DNA from: a virus
DNA: 64,000 bases
Virus record (IMG/VR): IMGVR_UViG_3300030329_001671
Span: 1 to 64,000 of that record
Direction: 5' to 3' (one strand)
A model generated the notes under the pieces. The model was given only the letters and a program-made list of their open reading frames with translations, was not told the DNA's origin and did no database searches. Position 1 is the first letter of the stretch; the number at the start of each line of letters is the position of its first letter. A program made the translations under genes and the position numbers. Positions 3,958 to 26,133 of the stretch are shown piece by piece.

Positions 3958-6900
3958 GCTCATTAATTTTAAAACTTTCCTAAGTAAGGCTCCTTATCAA
4001 CCAAAAGGTTTAAAGCCCTGTCCACCCGGTGAACATCGACATTGGGGTAGGATGGATTGTCACGAAATTCCCCAAAAACACAAGAAATACCTAAAGCAGG
4101 GAATTGATCTGCACCACGGAATGGATATTGGAACAGGTCAAATTCCAGAAGGCACAATTCCTCCTAATGCCCATGACTTTTATGATGACGGTCATCACAT
4201 GGCTACAGCACATGGAGAACATACCGGAAGTAAGGGAGGAATGTGTAAGCCGGGAGAATATCCTAAAGGGTCAGGTAAACTAGCTCCCTACCACAGGCAT
4301 CCCGGAGCAGATTATTGCCACCCTGTCCAACAAAAACATGGTGGTTCCTCCCAAAGTAAGCAAATTGCTCAACAATGGCACAATACTCACGCCGCTGACA
4401 TTCAAGCATCTTGGTACGAATTTAATGAACAACATGGGCTTCCTCAAGAGGAAACTGTACCGGATCCTGTTTCTGATCCAGTAGACCCTTATGAGGGAGA
4501 TAATAAAGACAATGTACCTACCCCAACGGATAATGTAGATGTTGTCTCATCTACTGAAGAGGATCAGCCAGCAATAGACTCTATAGATTCGCCGGGAAGC
4601 GTATCTAACCCGTTTAATGCTCAAGTAAATGACATAATTACACTCACAGAAGATTACGTTGTGGATCATCCTTCTAAAACGTACAAAATTACTGATATAA
4701 GTGAAAATGCCTATGGGGAGGAGTTTGCCCAACTTGAGCATACCGAAACTGGGAAAAAATCTGGAATATGGTTAAGTGAAGATAACATAGAGAGTATAGA
4801 AAAATGGCAACCTGAAGGAGAGGCGGTAAACTCCTTAAATCCTCATGAGTTTACGATAGGCTCTAAATTTATTAGTTCAGCAGGAAAAACTTATGAGATT
4901 ACTGGTTTAGATGCCACCGCCAATAAAATTTACTACAACGTGACGGATGAAAATGGTGAAGATCCTGCCACCATGGAATTCAAATTAGATAAGTTTAATA
5001 ATTGGGTTACGGAGGAGTTAGGAGATTCTGAGGATTCTTGGGGAACTCAAAACGCTTCTATAGAGCATCCACAACCCCCTAAGGGATTTACTCCTATAAA
5101 TATAGGAGATACTCTAACCGAAGACAACATTAGTAGTTTAAAAATAGGTGATTCGTGGCATGGGACAACAACGCATGCGGATGGCACTACTAACATCACC
5201 ATACAAGGAACATTAAAGGAAATTGATAAATCCTCAGGCGGTATACCTGTTTTTTCTGTAACTTGGCAAGAAATTTTCCAACATGATGACGGGGATTTAG
5301 AAAAAACAGGTGAGTCTTGGGACGGTATGATTACGGGTTCTAACCTGATTGAAAATGACTACGTACTTGCTGAAGACGTTAGCCATGCTACAGTCACTAC
5401 TCCGACTCCATCCGAAGAACAGGTAAAGAACGCTCCGCCCGCAGGAACGATACTAACGTCTTACGACGAATTAAAAAATATTCCTGTAGGAGCTGTTTTA
5501 ATATCTCCCGGAAATTCAGAACTGACTATTTTGGGTAATACTGAAGAGGCAGGTACATATCATGGCGGAGTTATAGAATTTTCTTGGGCAGGATCGGATA
5601 AAGTCCAATCACTAACATGGGAAGCAATGCTTCAAGAAGGTTACGACGGAGATCAATATGCCGTTGGCACTCTTCCAGATGGGATAAGCACTCTCAAAAA
5701 TTTTGGTTACGAACTAGGTGGTAAGGTCACTAGTGGTAATTTTAAGGATTTACCTGAAGGTTTATCCTTTTTAGATGCTACAGGTAGTACGGTCACCGTA
5801 ACTGGAAAGAAAGATACCGCAGAGGGTTCAGGTATATATGTGGATATACATAAACCAAGCGGAGCGGTATACGGAGCGCAATTTGTCTCCGAACTGACTG
5901 AATTATCTACTGACGATAACATCATGGAAGATGGATTTAAAATTGTTGGGTTACCCGATGGAACAACCCTCCAAGAGGCTTCCGAACCAAAACAACCAGT
6001 TAAAATTAATAAACATGGATTGGATAAAGGGACAACGGTTACAGTTAAAAATATGGCAGGAGATGTTTCTTCCGCTAAAATCGTAAAGACTCATAAAACT
6101 AAAGCGGGACAGAACTATACTCTAGAATACACAGATGGTCCGAATGCGGGACAAACTACTAAAATATCCTCAGGACAAGTAAAAGATGATTTAGAGGGTT
6201 ACCAAGGATATGGCGGGGTTGCCGTAGATGTTCCTATATATAAACCCGGACAAGAACCCGAAGAAACCGTAGAACTAACCTTACCTCCATTAGGCTCTGA
6301 ACCCGGTAATTGGGACGATGTTCTAGAAAAAACTTCGGGGAAATTGGGTTACAACGAAGGTGGGATATTTAAACACAAACAAACGGGTCAGCAATATTAC
6401 ATTAAATTTAGTAGTTCTGGAAACGACCAACAGGTTAACTCCGAAGCTTTAGCTAATAAGTTGTATGAACTATGTGGAATTGGTACTTTAGGAGCCGATG
6501 TAATTAGCTTTCAAGGTAAAACCGCTTTAAAATCTGCTTGGAATCCTGATTTGGAACAAGTCAACATCAACGATATGAAAAACGAACCGGGCATCATGAA
6601 TTCGTTTGTCATTGACGCATGGTTAGCGAATTGGGATGTTATAGGACCAAATCACGATAACACCCAAAAATCTGGAGATAAAATAATTAAAGTTGACAGC
6701 GGGGGATCTTTAAAATTCCGAGGCGCAGGAGAATCCAAACCATTCCCATCTACTGTGTCGGAATTAGAGTCTCTGCGAGATCCTGCCAAAGCTAAAGTAG
6801 CTTACCAAGTTTTCCAGAATATTTCCGAAGAGAACTTGAAAGCAGGAGCTCAAATCCTGAAAGGTGTTAAAGACTCCCATATTGAAGACATAGTAGGTGC

Positions 6901-18491: not shown

Positions 18492-19937
18492 GTGTGGATA
18501 CACATCCCGAAATCAAATACATCAGTCTCTACTCAGGAGGCGGGGGACTCGACCTTGCCTTCAAACTCGCAAATCCAAGTGCTAGAGCAGTCTGTTACGT
18601 GGAAAGGGAAGCATCGAGCCTTGCGCTCTTGGTTGACCACATGCAAACGGGACAATTGGATGATGCGCCTATCTTTGCAGATTCCGGAACCTTCGACGGT
18701 AAACCATGGCGTGGAAAAGTGGATTGGATCATTGGAGGATTCCCTTGTCAGCCCGCCTCCGTTGCAGGACGAAGATCAGGACAAGACGATGAGAGATGGC
18801 TTTTCCCTCACATTAGGAGAATCGTGTCAGAAGCGCAGCCACAAGGGTTGTTCTTGGAGAACGTGCGTGGACTCCTATCTGTTAATGATGGGGGCGGATT
18901 CGAAGAAATCCTCAGGGACTTGGCCAACCTCAGGTACCATGTTGAATGGGGTGTTTACAAAGCGTCCGATGTTGGAGCCAGTCATAGACGAGAACGGGCG
19001 TTCATCTATGCCCAAATGGCCGACCCCCGACACGACGGACAGGAATTACAAGCCAAAGAACTTCCGAAAGGATACGAACTTCAATCCCGAAACGGGTTTG
19101 GGGAGACATTCGGTATCGTTGGGTCAGGTAGTGAGCAGTTGGTCCACCCCTACAGCGAGGGACGTAAAGGGAACCAACAGTCAACCGAAGTTTATGACGC
19201 AACTTCCGAATCAAGTAGCGCACGAATTCGTTCCCAGTTGGAAAGAAGAGTACAGTCAGGATATGAACTGGCCGACTCCCGATACGATGCCCGAAGCACC
19301 GAACCAGAACAGCAACGTGAAGAATCGTCCGAAATCTTTGCTGAAGGCAGCGGAACTAGCCCAAGAAGTGGGGAACAACTGGGCTTCTCCTACTACCTCA
19401 AACGCCAACGACAAGTTCAAGAACCGTCCGAAGGATCCCTCTCGTCTGATGGGACAAGCGGTGATGTGGTCAACTTGGCCGACCCCCACGACTCAGGAGA
19501 CCCCGCATCCCGATATGGAATTAACGGAAACGGGACGACGGAAGACGAAGGACGGAAAGAACAGCCACAGTCTGAACTTACAGGACAGGGTGGCGGGTTG
19601 GAGAACGCCAAGCGCATCAGATCCAGATGGTGGGATAGTGAAGAAGAACTACGGAGGCAATCCGAAGATAAAACTACGGGATCAAGCGTCGAATTGGTCA
19701 ACGCCAATGGCGGGGGACGACGGAGCGAAATCAACGGTGAATTCCCATCAACGGGGATTGATTTCGGATGCAGACCATTTTCATGGCCGCCCCGTCCAAC
19801 AAGCCCTGAGTGGGGACACATCCTCAGGGAAAGACCCGACCTTGCCCCGGCTAAACCCGAAGTTCGTGGAGTGGTTGATGGGTTGGCCGGAGGATTGGGT
19901 AGAGCTGACAAACTTCGCATACTTGGAAACGGAGTAG
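18492..19937 (+). CDS. Overlapping second-frame protein within the methyltransferase gene
   Basis: A 481-codon frame stays open across almost the whole methyltransferase gene, shifted by one base. GTG 18492 begins it, but the true start may be further in. The translation is not random: W-x-[TS]-P-x-x-[TS/A]-x-[DN] recurs about seven times (WPTPDTTD, WSTPTARD, WPTPDTMP, WASPTTSN, WPTPTTQE, WRTPSASD, WSTPMAGD), preceded by SGTWPTSGTMLNGVF and ending with LNPKFVEWLMGWP. I recall this motif set from phage proteins encoded with cytosine methyltransferases. Function unknown; a partner of the methyltransferase is possible. Expression is not shown. Confidence 0.6.
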   Translation: MWIHIPKSNTSVSTQEAGDSTLPSNSQIQVLEQSVTWKGKHRALRSWLTTCKRDNWMMRLSLQIPEPSTVNHGVEKWIGSLEDSLVSPPPLQDEDQDKTMRDGFSLTLGESCQKRSHKGCSWRTCVDSYLLMMGADSKKSSGTWPTSGTMLNGVFTKRPMLEPVIDENGRSSMPKWPTPDTTDRNYKPKNFRKDTNFNPETGLGRHSVSLGQVVSSWSTPTARDVKGTNSQPKFMTQLPNQVAHEFVPSWKEEYSQDMNWPTPDTMPEAPNQNSNVKNRPKSLLKAAELAQEVGNNWASPTTSNANDKFKNRPKDPSRLMGQAVMWSTWPTPTTQETPHPDMELTETGRRKTKDGKNSHSLNLQDRVAGWRTPSASDPDGGIVKKNYGGNPKIKLRDQASNWSTPMAGDDGAKSTVNSHQRGLISDADHFHGRPVQQALSGDTSSGKDPTLPRLNPKFVEWLMGWPEDWVELTNFAYLETE

Positions 19938-20008
19938 TTCCGCAACAAGCAGCGGTAGCGTTTCTTATGCTAGAAAATCGAATGTTAGGTGTACACGAAG
20001 GAAGTTAA
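18494..20008 (+). CDS. dcm: DNA (cytosine-5) methyltransferase
   Basis: 504 residues, GTG start with AGGAG about 11 bases upstream. Motif I: SLYSGGGGLDLAF (about 10-22). Motif IV: GFPCQPASVAG with the catalytic Cys (about 80). Motif VI: LENVRG (about 120). Motif VIII: HRRERAF (about 163). The C-terminal motif IX/X region contains RILGNGVVPQQAAVAF (about 474-489). It transfers a methyl group from SAM to cytosine C5, probably protecting phage DNA from host restriction. The target-recognition stretch, about residues 180-460, is unusually hydrophilic and coincides with a second long open frame (separate entry). Base composition is richer in GC than the surroundings. Confidence 0.9.
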   Translation: MDTHPEIKYISLYSGGGGLDLAFKLANPSARAVCYVEREASSLALLVDHMQTGQLDDAPIFADSGTFDGKPWRGKVDWIIGGFPCQPASVAGRRSGQDDERWLFPHIRRIVSEAQPQGLFLENVRGLLSVNDGGGFEEILRDLANLRYHVEWGVYKASDVGASHRRERAFIYAQMADPRHDGQELQAKELPKGYELQSRNGFGETFGIVGSGSEQLVHPYSEGRKGNQQSTEVYDATSESSSARIRSQLERRVQSGYELADSRYDARSTEPEQQREESSEIFAEGSGTSPRSGEQLGFSYYLKRQRQVQEPSEGSLSSDGTSGDVVNLADPHDSGDPASRYGINGNGTTEDEGRKEQPQSELTGQGGGLENAKRIRSRWWDSEEELRRQSEDKTTGSSVELVNANGGGRRSEINGEFPSTGIDFGCRPFSWPPRPTSPEWGHILRERPDLAPAKPEVRGVVDGLAGGLGRADKLRILGNGVVPQQAAVAFLMLENRMLGVHEGS

Positions 20009-20009
20009 A

Positions 20010-21218
20010 ATGGTAACGGCTACTAAACAAATAGTACCCATAACCGAATTAGAACAATCGGCTTTTTGTCAGTCGGATGGAAACCTACGCACCAAAACTT
20101 TAGAAGAAGAGTTTAAGGCAGGAGTTCGTTGGCAGAAGATACCTACTAGATATGCAAAATTAACTCCTGAGGAATTGACCGAAGGAATTGCGTTTGCTAG
20201 GAAGGAAATTGGAACTAAGGCTGTAGTGTTAGGTCACCACTACCAACGTGACGATGTAATACAATTTGCAGACATAACAGGAGACTCGTATCAACTATCT
20301 AAACAAGCGTCGGAAATCACAGACGCTAAATGGATAATTTTTTGCGGTGTCCACTTTATGGCTGAAACAGCCGATATTCTTACTTCAAACGACCAAAACG
20401 TTATACTGCCTAACTTAGCTGCAGGTTGTTCTATGGCGGATATGGCTGCGATAGATGATGTAGAGACTAGTTGGAGTGCGTTGAAATATGTGTTGGGTTC
20501 TACAGAGGATATTATTCCTATAACCTACATGAATTCCTCCGCCTCCATAAAAGCGCATTGTGGAGAAAATGGTGGCTTGGTGTGTACTTCATCTAACGCT
20601 GATAAAGCTTTTGACTGGGCGTTGGAACGAGGGAATAAAATATTATTCCTACCTGACCAACACTTAGGAAGAAACACTGGACTAGCTAAAGGCATACCTG
20701 AGTCGGATATGAAAGTCTGGAATCCTCACCTACCTATGGGTGGATTAGAGGAAGAAGAAATTCACAAAGCTACTGTGTTATTGTGGCAGGGACACTGTTC
20801 TGTTCATACTAGATTTACCACCGATCAAATAGACACTATCAGGGATAAAAATCCTCTGACTAATATCTTGGTACATCCTGAGTGTACTAGAGAAGTGGTA
20901 GACGCAGCGGATATGGCAGGTTCTACAGAGTTTATTTTGAAAACCATAGCTAACGCTCCCTCAGGAACGTCTTGGGGAATCGGAACTGAAGTTAATATGG
21001 TAAAACGGTTAGCTCAACAGTATCCCGATAAAGAGATATTTTGTCTCGACCCTATAGTGTGTCCTTGTGCTACAATGTATAGAATACACCCTGCGTACAT
21101 TCTTTGGGTATTGGAGGGGATATTGGCGGGAATTGCGATAAACAGGATTGAGGTTGAGTCAGGGCATAAGAGACATGCTTTAGTTGCGCTTGACCGTATG
21201 CTGAAGTTAGGGGCGTAA
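20010..21218 (+). CDS. nadA: Quinolinate synthase
   Basis: 402 residues from ATG 20010 with GAAGGAAG just upstream (an in-frame upstream ATG at 19989 has no site). It condenses iminoaspartate with dihydroxyacetone phosphate to quinolinate in de novo NAD synthesis, using a 4Fe-4S cluster. Visible family motifs: VVLGHHYQRDDVIQFADITGDS, IIFCGVHFMAETADIL, and the three cluster cysteine regions AGCSMADM (about 139), HPECT (about 291) and CPCATMYRIHP (about 351). All key motifs are intact, so it looks active. NadB and NadC are not in the window; the host would supply them. An unusual phage metabolic gene. Confidence 0.9.
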   Translation: MVTATKQIVPITELEQSAFCQSDGNLRTKTLEEEFKAGVRWQKIPTRYAKLTPEELTEGIAFARKEIGTKAVVLGHHYQRDDVIQFADITGDSYQLSKQASEITDAKWIIFCGVHFMAETADILTSNDQNVILPNLAAGCSMADMAAIDDVETSWSALKYVLGSTEDIIPITYMNSSASIKAHCGENGGLVCTSSNADKAFDWALERGNKILFLPDQHLGRNTGLAKGIPESDMKVWNPHLPMGGLEEEEIHKATVLLWQGHCSVHTRFTTDQIDTIRDKNPLTNILVHPECTREVVDAADMAGSTEFILKTIANAPSGTSWGIGTEVNMVKRLAQQYPDKEIFCLDPIVCPCATMYRIHPAYILWVLEGILAGIAINRIEVESGHKRHALVALDRMLKLGA

Positions 21219-21235
21219 TTTTTAGATAAAATACT

Positions 21236-21243
21236 GTATAATA
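21236..21243 (+). promoter_or_regulatory. GTATAATA promoter-like motif before tRNA
   Basis: GTATAATA ends 10 bases before the tRNA 5' end at 21254, the spacing expected for a -10 element. This gives the clearest support that the motif is a promoter. No good -35 box. Confidence 0.6.
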
Positions 21244-21253
21244 TAGTATCCAT

Positions 21254-21328
21254 TGCGGGGTAGAGAAGTGGTATCTCATCTGGCTCATTACTAGAAGATC
21301 GTGGGTTCGATTCCCACCCCCGCTACCA
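21254..21328 (+). tRNA. tRNA-Met (anticodon CAU), CCA encoded
   Basis: All four arms fold by hand. Acceptor: 21254-21260 with 21318-21324, six G-C pairs plus a U-U mismatch at the first position. D stem: GAGA with TCTC. Anticodon stem: 21279-21283 with 21291-21295, loop CTCATTA giving CAU. T arm: GTGGG-TTCGATT-CCCAC. Discriminator A, then CCA. The anticodon stem lacks the three G-C pairs of bacterial initiators, so an elongator Met tRNA is likely. An isoleucine tRNA with lysidine at C34 cannot be excluded. Confidence 0.9.
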
Positions 21329-21350: not shown

Positions 21351-21662
21351 ATGTCAGAAAAGTTGGTAGCTTACGATAGTAAGTATCTCGTTGTGGAAGA
21401 CGATAACACTATGACCAAAGGCGGGTTGCATGTTCCGGGAGAACTAATGACAGTTCACGGATATGGGACTATAGCTAGTGTAGGTCAAGGTCGAGTAAAT
21501 GAGTTTTCTGGGGACACCATTAAACCCCGATTAAAGGTTGGAACTAGGGTGGTTTTTATAAAGCACTCTCAAATGGTGATAGACCATGAAGACACTAAGT
21601 ATTTTGTTCTAACTGACCACGAAATTGTGGCCACGTTGCACAAAACCAAGAAAGGTAAGTAG
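21351..21662 (+). CDS. groES: GroES-like co-chaperonin (Cpn10)
   Basis: 103 residues, ATG after AGGAGATAAGGT. The beta-barrel pattern of Cpn10 is visible: KGGLHVPGE takes the place of the mobile loop region, followed by GYGTIASVGQGRV, LKVGTRVVFIKH and YFVLTDHEIVATL. Phage GroES proteins (T4 gp31 and relatives) replace the host co-chaperonin to fold capsid protein in GroEL. No GroEL in the window. Adjacent to Hsp20, forming a small chaperone cassette. Confidence 0.8.
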   Translation: MSEKLVAYDSKYLVVEDDNTMTKGGLHVPGELMTVHGYGTIASVGQGRVNEFSGDTIKPRLKVGTRVVFIKHSQMVIDHEDTKYFVLTDHEIVATLHKTKKGK

Positions 21663-21872
21663 ATGTCAATAATCCAAGATAAACGAACCGAGTTGAGTGA
21701 GAATTTTACCTGTAACACAATAGACGAAGTTCATAAAGTTTTAACTGAGTTTATTGACAATAGAGCAGATGAAGCTAATTGGGATTTGCAAGTGCAGTTC
21801 CTAAAAGATAGTAAACTATGGTTAGTAGTTGCTAGGGCTAGTGTCATAGAAGGAGATATTCAATATGGCTAA
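21663..21872 (+). CDS. Small protein, unknown
   Basis: 69 residues, ATG directly after the GroES stop and overlapping the Hsp20 start by 8 bases. Helix followed by strands (NWDLQVQFLKDSKLWLVVARASV). No motif recognised. Tight coupling suggests co-translation with the chaperones. Confidence 0.55.
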   Translation: MSIIQDKRTELSENFTCNTIDEVHKVLTEFIDNRADEANWDLQVQFLKDSKLWLVVARASVIEGDIQYG

Positions 21873-22269
21873 TATTACAGATTTAATGAATCTTCCTCTT
21901 AGCGGAAATTTTGTCCGAAGTTTTTATGGTTTAGATACTCGGCGTCCTATGGATATAATAGATAGAGAGGCAGAATATTTAATAAGAGTATCTACACCGG
22001 GAGCAACGGATGTAAGCGTATCGGTTGAAGATAATTCTTTACTTATAGACGTAGAGCGAGATTTCTCTGAGAACGATAAAGAAGAAGGACAGTTTAATAT
22101 ACACGGTATATCAGACTATAAGTTTTCTAAAACTTTATCTCTGAATAATACTAATGTTGACGTAGATAAGATAACGTCAAAATATTCTAAGGGAATTCTA
22201 GAGATTACTCTTCCTAAAACTGAGGAAGCAAAACCTAAAGTAATTCCAGTAGATGTGACTATGGAGTAA
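21865..22269 (+). CDS. hsp20: Small heat shock protein, Hsp20/alpha-crystallin
   Basis: 134 residues, ATG with AGGAGATATTCA upstream. The alpha-crystallin domain spans about residues 33-130: MDIIDREAEYLIRVSTPGA, a central loop, then FSKTLSLNNTNVDVDKITSKYSKGILEITLPK, which contains the consensus G-x-L-x-x-x-x-P. The C-terminus holds a VIPV motif of the I-x-I/V type used for oligomer assembly. Holds unfolding proteins in soluble form. Common in marine myoviruses and some siphoviruses. Confidence 0.85.
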   Translation: MANITDLMNLPLSGNFVRSFYGLDTRRPMDIIDREAEYLIRVSTPGATDVSVSVEDNSLLIDVERDFSENDKEEGQFNIHGISDYKFSKTLSLNNTNVDVDKITSKYSKGILEITLPKTEEAKPKVIPVDVTME

Positions 22270-22272
22270 GTT

Positions 22273-22425
22273 ATGATTGGAAAACTTAGACCTCAAATCT
22301 TTTTAGCTATTATTGTCTTAGGCGTCCTAGCTTATACGGGAGCAAATAACGGTCTTCCAGAAATTGCTACAGGTACCATTGGGGGCATCATAGCTCTTGG
22401 AATGAAGGTACTGGAGAACGAATAA
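22273..22425 (+). CDS. Small two-helix membrane protein, holin candidate
   Basis: 50 residues, ATG at 22273. Two hydrophobic segments (IFLAIIVLGVLAYTGAN and IATGTIGGIIALGM) separated by a short loop, with a basic N-terminus (KLRPQ) and an acidic C-terminus (LENE). This is the layout of small class II holins or other phage membrane proteins. No endolysin is recognisable nearby, so the holin role is only a candidate. Confidence 0.55.
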   Translation: MIGKLRPQIFLAIIVLGVLAYTGANNGLPEIATGTIGGIIALGMKVLENE

Positions 22426-22487
22426 TGCTTTCTGAATGCAAATGTGGCGGAAATTGCCAATGTGGTAAAAAGGGGTTGACACACTAA
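22425..22487 (+). CDS. Cys-rich 20-residue peptide (possible)
   Basis: ATG in TAATG overlap with the membrane protein. It codes for 20 residues with a compact CKCGGNCQC motif, four cysteines arranged for metal binding. Its last codons overlap the TTGACA box of the next promoter. Translation is plausible from the coupled start but is not proven. Confidence 0.35.
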   Translation: MLSECKCGGNCQCGKKGLTH

Positions 22488-22504
22488 ATAAAATAGTGTA
22501 TACT
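22476..22504 (+). promoter_or_regulatory. Strong sigma-70 promoter
   Basis: TTGACA at 22476-22481 and TATACT at 22499-22504 with the ideal 17-bp spacing. The start site would fall near 22511, exactly at the first base of the structured RNA. This is the only near-consensus -35/-10 pair I found, which suggests transcription by host polymerase. Confidence 0.8.
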
Positions 22505-22510
22505 AATATG

Positions 22511-22684
22511 TATTCGCATGATCTACTTTGTACGGTAGATGGTAAGGGCTATTACATAGGTGGGAAGTCGTACACTATCCCACTAATGGTGCAAGTATAG
22601 CTAATGGATATGAACTGTGCATGAGTGAATATCTTGAACAGGCGTAGAGATGGAGCGGGAGTGGGAATCCCCGCCATGCGAATT
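22511..22684 (+). ncRNA. Structured non-coding RNA with kissing-loop potential, unknown class
   Basis: About 174 nt without a convincing ORF. The ends close with a perfect 9-bp helix (ATTCGCATG at 22512-22520, CATGCGAAT at 22675-22683). Inside: hairpin A (22521-22526/22535-22540), hairpin B (22560-22565/22578-22583), hairpin D (22590-22596/22614-22621, one bulge) and hairpin C (22655-22659/22670-22674). Loop A contains TGTACG (22529-22534) and loop B the exact complement CGTACA (22569-22574), a 6-bp kissing interaction. It matches no class I can name: no B12 box, RNase P or SRP signature. A dedicated promoter and an adjacent tmRNA-like gene support it. Confidence 0.7.
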
Positions 22685-22722
22685 ATTTAACACCCCCTTA
22701 TTTTTTTATTTGTGATAAGGTA

Positions 22723-22728
22723 TATAAT
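22723..22728 (+). promoter_or_regulatory. -10-like TATAAT before the tmRNA-like gene
   Basis: TATAAT ends eight bases before the GGGGG that begins the tmRNA-like RNA. The -35 region is T-rich without a consensus. The RNA could also be processed from the upstream transcript. Confidence 0.4.
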
Positions 22729-22735
22729 ATGTATT

Positions 22736-22875
22736 GGGGGCGCATGGTTTCGACTGGTTCCCTAGCAATCAATCAGAGATGTAATGTCTCAACTGCTAAA
22801 AAGCCCACAGCAAATACGGCAGGGTTGACCGAGTAGGAAGTCAGGACGAGGGTTCGATTCCCTCCGCTTCCACCA
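22736..22875 (+). ncRNA. ssrA: Compact tmRNA-like RNA (ssrA-like)
   Basis: The 5' end GGGGGCG followed by CATGGTTTCGACTGG is the tmRNA signature. The 3' end has a perfect T arm (GAGGG-TTCGATT-CCCTC) and CGCTTCC-A-CCA, which pairs with the 5' GGGGGCG. A P2-type helix joins CTGGTTCCCTA near the 5' side with TAGGAAGTCAG near the 3' side. The whole RNA is only 140 nt, against roughly 260-430 in bacteria, so most pseudoknots are missing. A possible tag frame starts at GCA 22810 (A-N-T-A-G-L-T-E, stop TAG 22834-22836) without the usual ALAA degradation end. Function uncertain: a mini tmRNA or a degenerate remnant. Confidence 0.65.
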
Positions 22876-22944
22876 AAACATAGAGTGCGTGACCGCCACA
22901 TGAAGACGGCCCTCCACACTCCTTAGTGCGTTTAGGAGAAAACA

Positions 22945-23043
22945 ATGCGTACTATTAGAGAGTTTTTTAGGGTGATTGTTCAAAAACTGGAGTTAGAAGA
23001 GTATTTAGGTCATAGAGACTCTTACATAAAATGGATAAGGTAA
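22945..23043 (+). CDS. Small basic 32-residue protein
   Basis: ATG at 22945 preceded by TAGGAGAAAAC, an excellent ribosome site. It ends five bases before the sigma-like gene. Amphipathic and mixed charge (FFRVIVQKLELEEYLG). It could be a leader peptide for the sigma-like gene or a small regulator. No family recognised. Confidence 0.45.
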   Translation: MRTIREFFRVIVQKLELEEYLGHRDSYIKWIR

Positions 23044-23047
23044 ACGT

Positions 23048-23635
23048 ATGACGCATAACGAAGCACAGTTGCTAGAACAGTGGGAGCCTAAGGTAAATTC
23101 TATGCTTCGTAGTGTGTCTATCGTAGGACTTGATCGGGAAGATATCGCCCAAGAACTTCGGATTTCAATACTGAAATCTGCTAGAGGGTATAATTCCGAA
23201 AACACTTCAGCTAAATTCCATACGTATTTACACGTATCTATGTTAAACGTAATTAGAAGTTTAATGGCGAAGGCGAAGAAACACGTACCGACTGTTTCTT
23301 TAGATCAACATCTAAGTTCTTCTATGTCTCAATCCGACACTAGAAATATAGGGTCGGTATCTAATAAGTTGCTAACGGCTTTAGAGGATCCTGCCCAGAT
23401 AGAAATTTTCGATGAAGTGGATTTATTGTCTCTGATAGATAAATGTAATCTCACCCCTAAAGAGTTAGATTTTATAGATTTACGAACCCAACGGTATAGG
23501 TTAAGGGAAATTAGTGATATACTAGAGGTTAATGCTGTAAAGCTACGAGAAAGCGTCAAACTTAAACTAGAATGGGGACTTAAATCAGAATGCCAATTAA
23601 CCTTTATGAGTTATCAGAACAATATAAAACTTTAG
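23048..23635 (+). CDS. Phage sigma-70-like transcription factor
   Basis: 195 residues. Residues about 28-80 match sigma region 2: LDREDIAQELRISILKSARGY, FHTYLHVSMLNVIRSLMAKAKK. Residues about 135-175 match region 4: LTPKELDFIDLRTQRYRLREISDILEVNAVKLRESV, a helix-turn-helix. Region 3 is replaced by a short linker, as in group 4 and phage sigma factors. It would redirect host RNA polymerase to phage promoters, and the recurrent GTATAATA motif is the obvious candidate target. Overlaps the next gene by 46 bases. Confidence 0.7.
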   Translation: MTHNEAQLLEQWEPKVNSMLRSVSIVGLDREDIAQELRISILKSARGYNSENTSAKFHTYLHVSMLNVIRSLMAKAKKHVPTVSLDQHLSSSMSQSDTRNIGSVSNKLLTALEDPAQIEIFDEVDLLSLIDKCNLTPKELDFIDLRTQRYRLREISDILEVNAVKLRESVKLKLEWGLKSECQLTFMSYQNNIKL

Positions 23636-24129
23636 TAGATTTTGCCGAAGAAGAAGATGTAGATATTTCGGAAGTCTTATTAGGTATTGCTGAAACACTA
23701 GACCAAAGAATGGAAAGTTTAGTGTTGTCGGTAAAGACTCTAGAGGCGCAATCCGCAGTAGTGGATTCAGAAATCACCCGGCTGAAAGATAAAAAGAAAG
23801 CTATCAATAACCACGTAACTCGAATAAAAGATTACATGAGGCAGTTACTAGAGGCTTCAGGAAGAACTAAAGCCGGGGGTACGCTAGGTTCTGTAAATAT
23901 ACAAAACAGTCCTCTGAGTTTAGTGGTAGATGATGAGAATGTGATTCCATCGGACTTTATGAAAGCCACACTAACCCTCCAACTAAATGAATTACCCGAA
24001 GAACTATCAGGACACCCCACACTAAAATTAGCTGTGGATAAAAAAGCTATTATAGATTTAGCTAGGAACGATGATTTTGAAGTTCAAGGAACTCACGTAG
24101 AAAGGAATCAACACCTAAGGCTACGATGA
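23590..24129 (+). CDS. Gp157-family (siphovirus Gp157) protein
   Basis: 179 residues. The pattern of the Siphovirus Gp157 family is clear: NLYELSEQYKTLVDFAEEE, a long coiled coil (about 35-85), IKDYMRQLLEASGRTKAGGTLGSVNIQNSP, then a beta region and a terminal KLAVDKKAIIDLARND. The family is linked to phage replication or recombination modules; its biochemical role is not established. The start lies inside the sigma-like gene, and its end overlaps the helicase start (ATGA). Confidence 0.75.
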   Translation: MPINLYELSEQYKTLVDFAEEEDVDISEVLLGIAETLDQRMESLVLSVKTLEAQSAVVDSEITRLKDKKKAINNHVTRIKDYMRQLLEASGRTKAGGTLGSVNIQNSPLSLVVDDENVIPSDFMKATLTLQLNELPEELSGHPTLKLAVDKKAIIDLARNDDFEVQGTHVERNQHLRLR

Positions 24130-25742
24130 TTCGGATAGACTACAAAGCCCCATTCTTTATTTTAGACTTTCCTTATAATAAGGGAGACTTGAAACTTGTC
24201 CAAAATTTACCAGTTCGTGAATGGAACAAATCAACCAAAGAGTGGAGAGTTCCTAGGTTAGCTAGTAAATCCTTAGAGCAATTAGGTCCCCCACGGACAG
24301 TACCCGCTACTTGGACAGATGCAGCTCAGGCAGCCAAACAAAAAGTCGAAGACACGATACTAAAATTAGTGGATTTGAAGTTTCAAGAAGGGGAGTCTGG
24401 CGGATTACTTCGCCCGTATCAAACTGTTGGAGTTGAGTTTCTAACGTTTGCTAAAAAAGGATTATTAGCGGATGATATGGGGTTAGGTAAATCCATTCAA
24501 GCTATTAAAGCTTCTATGGATGTATCTGCCGATAAAGTATTAGTATTATGTCCTGCGTCGTTAAAGTGGAAATGGGCTGACGAGTTTAAAAAACATTTCA
24601 ATATTGATGCTTTTGTGGTCGCAGGAAAAAAGGAAGAACGTAGAGCAGTTTGGAAATCTAAAGCTAAGTATATTATAGCTAACTATGACCTACTCCACCC
24701 TAATAGGGATTGGGACGATATGCCCCACAAATGGGATGTTATTATTGCCGATGAAGCGGTGTACCTAAAAAATCCCAAGGCCATAAGAACTAAACGAGCT
24801 CTAAAGTTAGAGGCAGAATATAAGTTCGCCTTATCGGGAATATACATAGAAAACAGCCTAACGGAGTTCTTTTCTATTATGAAATTTATCCGCCCTGAGG
24901 TTGTCCCCGATAACGTTTACACATTTACTAAACGCTATTGTGAAGTCGATTGGAACGGTAAAGTTTTAGGAGCGAAAAAAGAAAAATTACCAGAGCTCCA
25001 CGCCCTGACTTCTCCATTTGTGTTGCGTAGAACTAAGCTAGAAAAGCTGAAGGAGTTACCTCCAAAAATCTATACGCCTATTCCACTGGAGATGTCGGCG
25101 GAAGAAAAATCTGAATACTCAAAACTATCCTCAGAATTTAAAGCATGGGTTGAGGGTGGGAGTAAAGAAGAACATAAAACTGTGGGATCCGCTACGCTAG
25201 ATGTCAGATATTTCGTTGAAGGTATGTATGGTAATTTAGCTACTAAAACTAAAAGACAATGGCTAGAAGAGTTATATAAAACTGTAGATAAGTTAGTCGT
25301 ATTCACATTCTTTGAAAAAAGTGCCAGAATGTTGAAAGAGTATTTTGATACTCCTTATTACATATCTGGAAAAGAAAAGAACAATAGGTTTGAAGTAGTT
25401 AGGGATTTCAACAAAATTAAAAAGGGAATTCTCATATCTACCGATGCTGGAAAATTCGGCTTAGATATGGTGGGTGCGGATACATTAGTTCACTACGGAT
25501 ATGTCCATAACCCCGGTACGATGATTCAGCGTGAAGATAGATTATGGCGTATGGGTCAGGAAAAAACAGTTAACATTCTATTACCGTATTTAATCGGTAC
25601 AATAGATGAAGGAATACAGAAAGTTTACAATACTAGGTTGGCAGAATCTAATAATTTTATGGAAGGCGCAGAGCAAATGCAAGAAGTAAAATTATCGGTA
25701 CAAGATTATGCAAAATTAGTTGATGGAAATTATTATGAGTAG
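24126..25742 (+). CDS. SNF2-family helicase with HARP-like N-terminus
   Basis: 538 residues. N-terminal 50 residues (FPYNKGDLKLVQNLPVREWN, followed by TKEWRVP) resemble the HARP module of SMARCAL1-type annealing helicases. Helicase motifs: LRPYQTVGVEFL, DDMGLGKS (Walker A, about 115), LCPASLKWKW, IIADEAV (DEAD-box position, about 209), FALSGIYIEN (motif III), STDAGKFGLDM and QREDRLWRMGQ (motif VI, about 468). Motif II reads DEAV instead of DEAH/DEAQ. Probably remodels replication forks or anneals strands during phage replication. Confidence 0.85.
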   Translation: MIRIDYKAPFFILDFPYNKGDLKLVQNLPVREWNKSTKEWRVPRLASKSLEQLGPPRTVPATWTDAAQAAKQKVEDTILKLVDLKFQEGESGGLLRPYQTVGVEFLTFAKKGLLADDMGLGKSIQAIKASMDVSADKVLVLCPASLKWKWADEFKKHFNIDAFVVAGKKEERRAVWKSKAKYIIANYDLLHPNRDWDDMPHKWDVIIADEAVYLKNPKAIRTKRALKLEAEYKFALSGIYIENSLTEFFSIMKFIRPEVVPDNVYTFTKRYCEVDWNGKVLGAKKEKLPELHALTSPFVLRRTKLEKLKELPPKIYTPIPLEMSAEEKSEYSKLSSEFKAWVEGGSKEEHKTVGSATLDVRYFVEGMYGNLATKTKRQWLEELYKTVDKLVVFTFFEKSARMLKEYFDTPYYISGKEKNNRFEVVRDFNKIKKGILISTDAGKFGLDMVGADTLVHYGYVHNPGTMIQREDRLWRMGQEKTVNILLPYLIGTIDEGIQKVYNTRLAESNNFMEGAEQMQEVKLSVQDYAKLVDGNYYE

Positions 25743-26133
25743 AACACACATATCCGCTATCGAATTGAAAGGACCGTATAAGTGTTTAGCTAATTCATAC
25801 CCAACCTCTGTTATTGTCGAGGGAATTACCTATCCGTCGGTAGAACATGCTTTCCAAGCTGCTAAAGTTTTAGACAGAACCGTGAAATTTAAAATTTCTA
25901 AAATGTCTAATTTAGCTGAAGTTAAGAAGTTGTTACTAAATGAATGGACTCGACCCAACTGGAATGAGGTTAAGTATGCTACACTACATCAATTGGTAAA
26001 ATTAAAGTTTGAGTCTAATAAAGATTTAGCTAAAGTGCTAACTAATACTGGTACCAAGCGTATAGGCGGTAAAAAGGATTCCGAATTAGGCTCTATTTTG
26101 ATGAAAGTTAGAGGCGAAATACTTCGTGCCTAA
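25735..26133 (+). CDS. NADAR-domain protein (YbiA-like)
   Basis: 132 residues from ATG 25735 (8-base overlap with the helicase stop). Family hallmarks: GPYKCLANSYPTSVIVEGIT, YPSVEHAFQAAK with the conserved Glu, RPNWNEVKYATLHQLVKLKF, LTNTGTKRIG and ELGSILMKVRGEI. NADAR proteins are associated with NAD/ADP-ribose and have been reported to remove ADP-ribose from guanine bases, countering DarT-type toxins. Here it sits in the replication operon, so protection of phage DNA from host ADP-ribosylating defence is a reasonable inference. Alternative: a riboflavin- or NAD-metabolism side role. Confidence 0.8.
   Translation: MSRTHISAIELKGPYKCLANSYPTSVIVEGITYPSVEHAFQAAKVLDRTVKFKISKMSNLAEVKKLLLNEWTRPNWNEVKYATLHQLVKLKFESNKDLAKVLTNTGTKRIGGKKDSELGSILMKVRGEILRA

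Follow-up and report, generated by a model that had tools for sequence, protein, structure and literature searches.

The 64,000-nucleotide stretch of viral DNA analysed here (the window, part of an 88.5-kb virus record) contains a 174-nt segment, RNA X, and our best explanation, in which our confidence is evenly balanced, is that it represents a real, lineage-specific, non-coding, promoter-driven phage RNA that is co-transcribed with a neighbouring miniature tmRNA (mini-tmRNA) and acts in trans. The promoter, the closing helix, and the kissing hexamers on which the original prediction of a structured RNA was based were all confirmed (Table 1). The virus record encodes a large terminase, portal, major head protein, PolA, DnaB, and ribonucleotide reductase, together with NadA, GroES, Hsp20, and a sigma-factor-like protein, and its closest portal proteins among deposited phages were the distant ones of Haloarcula tailed viruses.

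Table 1. Features of the RNA X locus (window coordinates).
Feature	Position	Strand	Basis or remark
tRNA-Met	21254-21328		
-35 hexamer TTGACA	22476-22481	+	-35 of the mini-tmRNA promoter at the same place in L003; TTGGCA in L001
Inverted repeat ACACTA-N7-TAGTGT	22481-22499	+	spans the promoter spacer; read from sequence
About 215-bp segment	22493-22708	+	in the window, missing from L001; no counterpart in L003/L004
-10 hexamer TATACT	22499-22504	+	17-nt spacer
RNA X, structured RNA candidate, 174 nt, non-coding	22511-22684	+	folding, shuffle controls
Closing helix, 5' strand ATTCGCATG	22512-22520	+	folding, shuffles
Hairpin A, 6 bp, loop TTTGTACG	22521-22540	+	abuts closing helix; kissing hexamer 22529-22534
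Hairpin B, 6 bp, loop AGTCGTACACTA	22560-22583	+	kissing hexamer 22569-22574
G+C-rich hairpin	22655-22674	+	adjoins closing-helix 3' strand; folding
Closing helix, 3' strand CATGCGAAT	22675-22683	+	folding, shuffles
-10 TATAAT	22723-22728	+	immediately 5' of mini-tmRNA; a good -35 is lacking at 15-19 nt
mini-tmRNA, 140 nt	22736-22875	+	RF00023, 64.9 bits (gathering 47); CCA encoded; invariant G3-U pair
Putative tag frame ANTAGLTE-stop	22810-22836	+	ANTVGMFK-stop in L003; read from alignment

The promoter of RNA X had been described as near-consensus and placed at the 5' base of the closing helix, and both points were borne out: it is of the sigma-70 type (-35 and -10 hexamers 17 nt apart), matches 11 of the 12 consensus positions, and has a predicted transcription start at 22511-22512, where the closing helix begins. 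The exact form TTGACA-N16-18-TATAMT occurred at this single site in the 64 kb, with 0.17 occurrences expected. The inverted repeat in the spacer is a possible operator, and early, abundant expression of RNA X, as originally proposed, is suggested by the promoter alone. Because the 15-mer ATAAAATAGTGTATA at the spacer and -10 of this promoter recurs unchanged in the promoter of the tRNA-Met gene of L003, a related phage, the stable RNA genes of the phage appear to have promoter sequence in common. A shared promoter block, GATAAAATA-S-TGTATAATAT, precedes tRNA-Met and, with part of its sequence, RNA X (window 21225-21245 and 22487-22507; L003 5655-5675); tRNA-Met was without a good -35, and the sigma-factor-like gene is located at 23048-23635.

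The closing helix consists of nine perfect pairs with computed pair probabilities of 0.77-1.0, and was found in none of 3000 dinucleotide-preserving shuffles of the RNA X segment; at the 174-nt spacing, only three sites in the whole window have such a helix. The loop hexamers of hairpins A and B (TGTACG and CGTACA) are exactly complementary, as claimed, and a pair of hairpins with complementary loops and Watson-Crick stems of at least 6 bp arose in 0/3000 shuffles of the segment, or in 51/3000 when G-U was permitted in the stems. With Watson-Crick stems, the pair in RNA X was the sole one in the window, shuffled windows holding 0-3 (mean 0.5, n=12), and the A-B loop complementarity was thereby shown to exceed chance. 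The segment contained no sense-strand ORF of at least 40 aa, in agreement with its description as free of ORFs.

The prediction of four internal hairpins held for hairpin B, with a computed ensemble probability of about 1.0, but not equally for hairpin A (0.018), and because the minimum-energy fold (-57.7) pairs the hairpin A strand elsewhere, the four-hairpin picture is partly model-dependent. The best fold containing both A and B reached -54.2 with the kissing bonus excluded, 3.5 kcal/mol worse than the minimum; the six-pair kissing contact could offset this cost, and A and B would be the earliest hairpins to arise as the RNA is transcribed. Comparison of the folding energy with shuffled controls, which had been suggested as a check, gave z scores of -3.46 (200 shuffles) and -3.34 (1000 shuffles, one of them as low), but when 554 windows were scanned coarsely, at 20 shuffles each, RNA X had a z of -2.4 and ranked only 46th by z and 6th by raw energy. 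Folding energy by itself is thus modest support for RNA X. The 174-nt stretches starting at 6729, 56957, 56029, and 56841 gave z scores of -4.7 to -5.8 (20 shuffles each), stronger than that of RNA X.

RNA X is an orphan, with no homologue in Rfam, in the phage, plasmid, and viral collections, or in the approximately 700 genomes searched. The Rfam 15 covariance models matched nothing in RNA X up to E = 5, with the tRNA and tmRNA neighbours alone being recognized, which upheld the claim that it matches no known RNA class. No exact 20-mer of RNA X was found in viral contigs, blastn against phages with either 2.2 kb or RNA X alone returned only short AT-rich or chance matches, and the plasmid search yielded one chance 26-mer. 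A loop-anchored pattern had two matches in viral contigs (L017 and L018), by eye without the closing helix or stems, and three in genome contigs, none of which fit a single-sequence covariance model of RNA X. That model recovered no homologue in the fetched loci, the whole records of the phage and its relatives, further records, or 399 + 297 bacterial genomes from two phyla; such a model has little power and the host was not identified, so distant homologues may be missed. Antisense matches of RNA X to the rest of the window were rejected, the longest being 11 nt.

Related phages were located via the sigma-like protein, helicase, and DnaB, and the relatives spanning the locus, L001 (95% identical DNA) and L003/L004 (about 74%, and identical to each other across the fetched stretch), were all without RNA X. 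In L003, TTGACA-17-TATAAT sits directly before the mini-tmRNA, and the order in the window is the same -35, RNA X's own -10, RNA X, a second -10, and the mini-tmRNA; in L001, which is missing about 215 bp, the altered -35 is 25 nt from the -10. Because the relatives are without RNA X and the consensus promoter of L003 directly drives the mini-tmRNA, RNA X appears to be a lineage-specific accessory inside the mini-tmRNA transcription unit. Its gain in the lineage of the window, or its gain followed by loss in L001, would both fit. The original prediction had overlooked the mini-tmRNA 51 nt downstream of RNA X, the identity of the -35 with that of the mini-tmRNA in L003, and the absence of RNA X from the relatives.

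This distribution bears on a reading that we regard as doubtful, namely that RNA X has no selected function and is either a transient insertion or a remnant in decay, its fold inherited from its source or formed by chance. Its presence in one of the three lineages at the locus, as an indel relative to the 95% identical relative, is consistent with such an origin, as are its orphan status in every collection searched and a folding energy that is not exceptional for its genome, but decay would not leave a promoter that is still intact and directed at a closing helix without mismatches, together with a kissing pair (0/3000 shuffles).

The neighbouring mini-tmRNA has the acceptor with its G3-U pair, the UUCGAC motif, the T arm, the CCA, and the H2 helix of a tmRNA; ARAGORN does not detect it. 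In an alignment of the copies in the window, L001 (5690-5829), L003 (6690-6827), and L033 (11474-11613, minus strand), 96.6% of cells pair, and 8 of the 29 pairs are changed on both sides, more than in any one of 500 shuffles or in any slid version, a count that leans towards the structure that was hand-drawn on these four sequences. A GCA...stop frame of eight codons, a putative tag, was kept in the window, L001, and L033, and with changes in L003; the tag ends without the usual Ala-Ala. The near-identical gene in L033, a phage with different neighbouring genes, suggests that the mini-tmRNA was horizontally transferred. A search for SmpB that was positive in 10 of 14 control genomes detected no such gene in the record of the phage or in those of three relatives, so the mini-tmRNA would use host SmpB. 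Just 3' of the mini-tmRNA, GAGTGCGTGACCGCCAC...GACGGCCCTCCAC (window 22886-22930, L003 6838-6870) is near-invariant between phages of about 74% identity, and a search with this motif recovered the known relatives only.

For an RNA X that acts in trans, we propose that host sigma-70 polymerase would transcribe RNA X and read through into the mini-tmRNA; no terminator-like site was detected in 21500-24000. RNase P cuts the 5' ends of other tmRNAs and tRNAs, and cleavage at the 5' end of the mini-tmRNA by this enzyme would release RNA X. The closing helix would then keep the molecule shut while the A-B kissing pair compacts it, or alternatively the kissing pair could connect two RNA X molecules. 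RNA X would act as an accessory stable RNA, made alongside the phage translation RNAs (tRNA-Met and the mini-tmRNA), and that its partner is translation-related is no more than a guess based on this neighbourhood.

Such a stand-alone RNA is favoured because its promoter is rare and a consensus promoter occupies the same locus in L003, because neither the closing helix nor the kissing hairpins arose in shuffles, the kissing pair is unique in the window, and z is about -3.3, and because the promoter resembles that of the phage tRNA-Met and the neighbour is a genuine stable RNA. Co-transcription and release are favoured because RNA X and the mini-tmRNA lie in one transcription unit, because no terminator was detected between them, and because RNA X has the closing helix. 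In contrast, the lack of homologues and with it of covariation, the exclusion of hairpin A from the minimum-energy fold, the many genome windows with stronger z, and the absence of RNA X from both locus-covering relatives argue against it. Based on these data, RNA X looks real as a promoter-driven structured RNA, matches no known class, and has a kissing pair beyond chance, but no specific evidence supported the proposed roles as a mimic, a sponge, or a regulator of polymerase.

The arrangement of promoter, RNA X, and mini-tmRNA on one strand, with a 51-nt gap and no detected terminator, would also suit a riboswitch-like cis leader. In such a closed, multi-branched domain, the 3' strand of the closing helix would have two alternative partners, its own 5' strand and the initial 12 nt of the mini-tmRNA, and a ligand or state would thereby decide mini-tmRNA maturation. 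The anatomy of RNA X is aptamer-like, folding of the joint transcript gives a minimum-energy structure in which the closing helix is open and CCATGCG/CCCCC is instead paired with CGCATGG/GGGGG at the mini-tmRNA 5' end, and a phage tmRNA under a glutamine riboswitch provides a precedent (PMC9004378). We consider this leader function unlikely: no known riboswitch class matches RNA X, the 5' end of the mini-tmRNA is unchanged in phages without RNA X (L001 and L033), and a selected pairing of the RNA X tail with that end was rejected, since 145/2000 shuffled tails and 12/3998 genome windows did as well.

Descent of RNA X from a tandem duplication of the mini-tmRNA, followed by divergence, would account for the common start TAATATGTATT...CGCATG and for a last hairpin that is T-arm-like, but is very unlikely and was rejected: the two align closely from -10 to +12, an alignment including the promoter being equalled by 14/500 shuffles, but with the promoter excluded 294/500 shuffles align as well, no tmRNA model matches RNA X, the CCA and UUCGAC motifs are absent, and its closing helix has 9 rather than 7 bp.

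The packaging RNA (pRNA) of phi29 likewise measures 174 nt as a transcript, and it too has ends that pair and loops that are complementary. In contrast to phi29, the phage of RNA X has an ordinary large terminase, there was no sequence or model match, and we treated the equal length as a coincidence. The large ornate RNAs GOLLD and ROOL of phages and prophages resemble RNA X as phage-encoded structured RNAs of no known role that lie near tRNA genes and carry kissing loops (PMC12286853), but they are about 660 to over 800 nt long and have a large conserved secondary structure, whereas RNA X is too short for one, has no Rfam match, and comes with no evidence of multimers. In the OM43 phage Melnitz, a structured RNA element, the glutamine riboswitch, precedes the phage tmRNA in one transcription unit, a similar arrangement, but its tmRNA is two-piece and its riboswitch a recognised class (PMC9004378), in contrast to the one-piece miniature found here and an RNA X that matches no riboswitch. 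Very short-tag (2-aa) and CDS-less tmRNAs are on record, with the CDS-less form of phage DS6A inhibiting host tmRNA (PMC11915505), and the neighbour of RNA X is also a strongly reduced phage tmRNA, but one that keeps a conserved 8-codon frame, and RNA X itself is not a tmRNA.

We consider it improbable that RNA X founds a new class of phage RNAs, compact and stabilised by kissing loops, that came to sit in a phage tmRNA transcription unit and adjusts trans-translation or the working of the ribosome during infection, whether as a leader switch or in trans. Should RNA X prove to be expressed in infected cells, it would be a small structured phage RNA that falls outside existing classes and has a physical link to a miniature tmRNA, and the locus would offer a compact setting for studying the adjustment of ribosome rescue by phages. 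Gain or loss of such RNAs among close relatives is also seen at the locus, which bears on the origin of orphan phage RNAs.

A strict short-tmRNA pattern gave no matches, and a looser one returned 32 stretches, which included several plausible mini-tmRNAs of phages as well as some tRNA pairs. Short tmRNA-like genes of about 80-130 nt were observed in viral contigs L022, L025, L026, L027, L035, L036, L041, and L046, some apparently without a tag frame, and those of L035, L036, and L041 have a mid-gene AAGAC-N-TG-R-AA motif in common. The cytosine methylase gene of the window (18494-20008) is overlapped by a second long open frame in another register (18492-19937, 481 aa), which is long in L003 too (414 aa). 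Quinolinate synthase NadA (19989-21218) and a NADAR-domain protein (25720-26133) are phage-encoded in one region, pointing to a possible involvement of NAD metabolism in infection.
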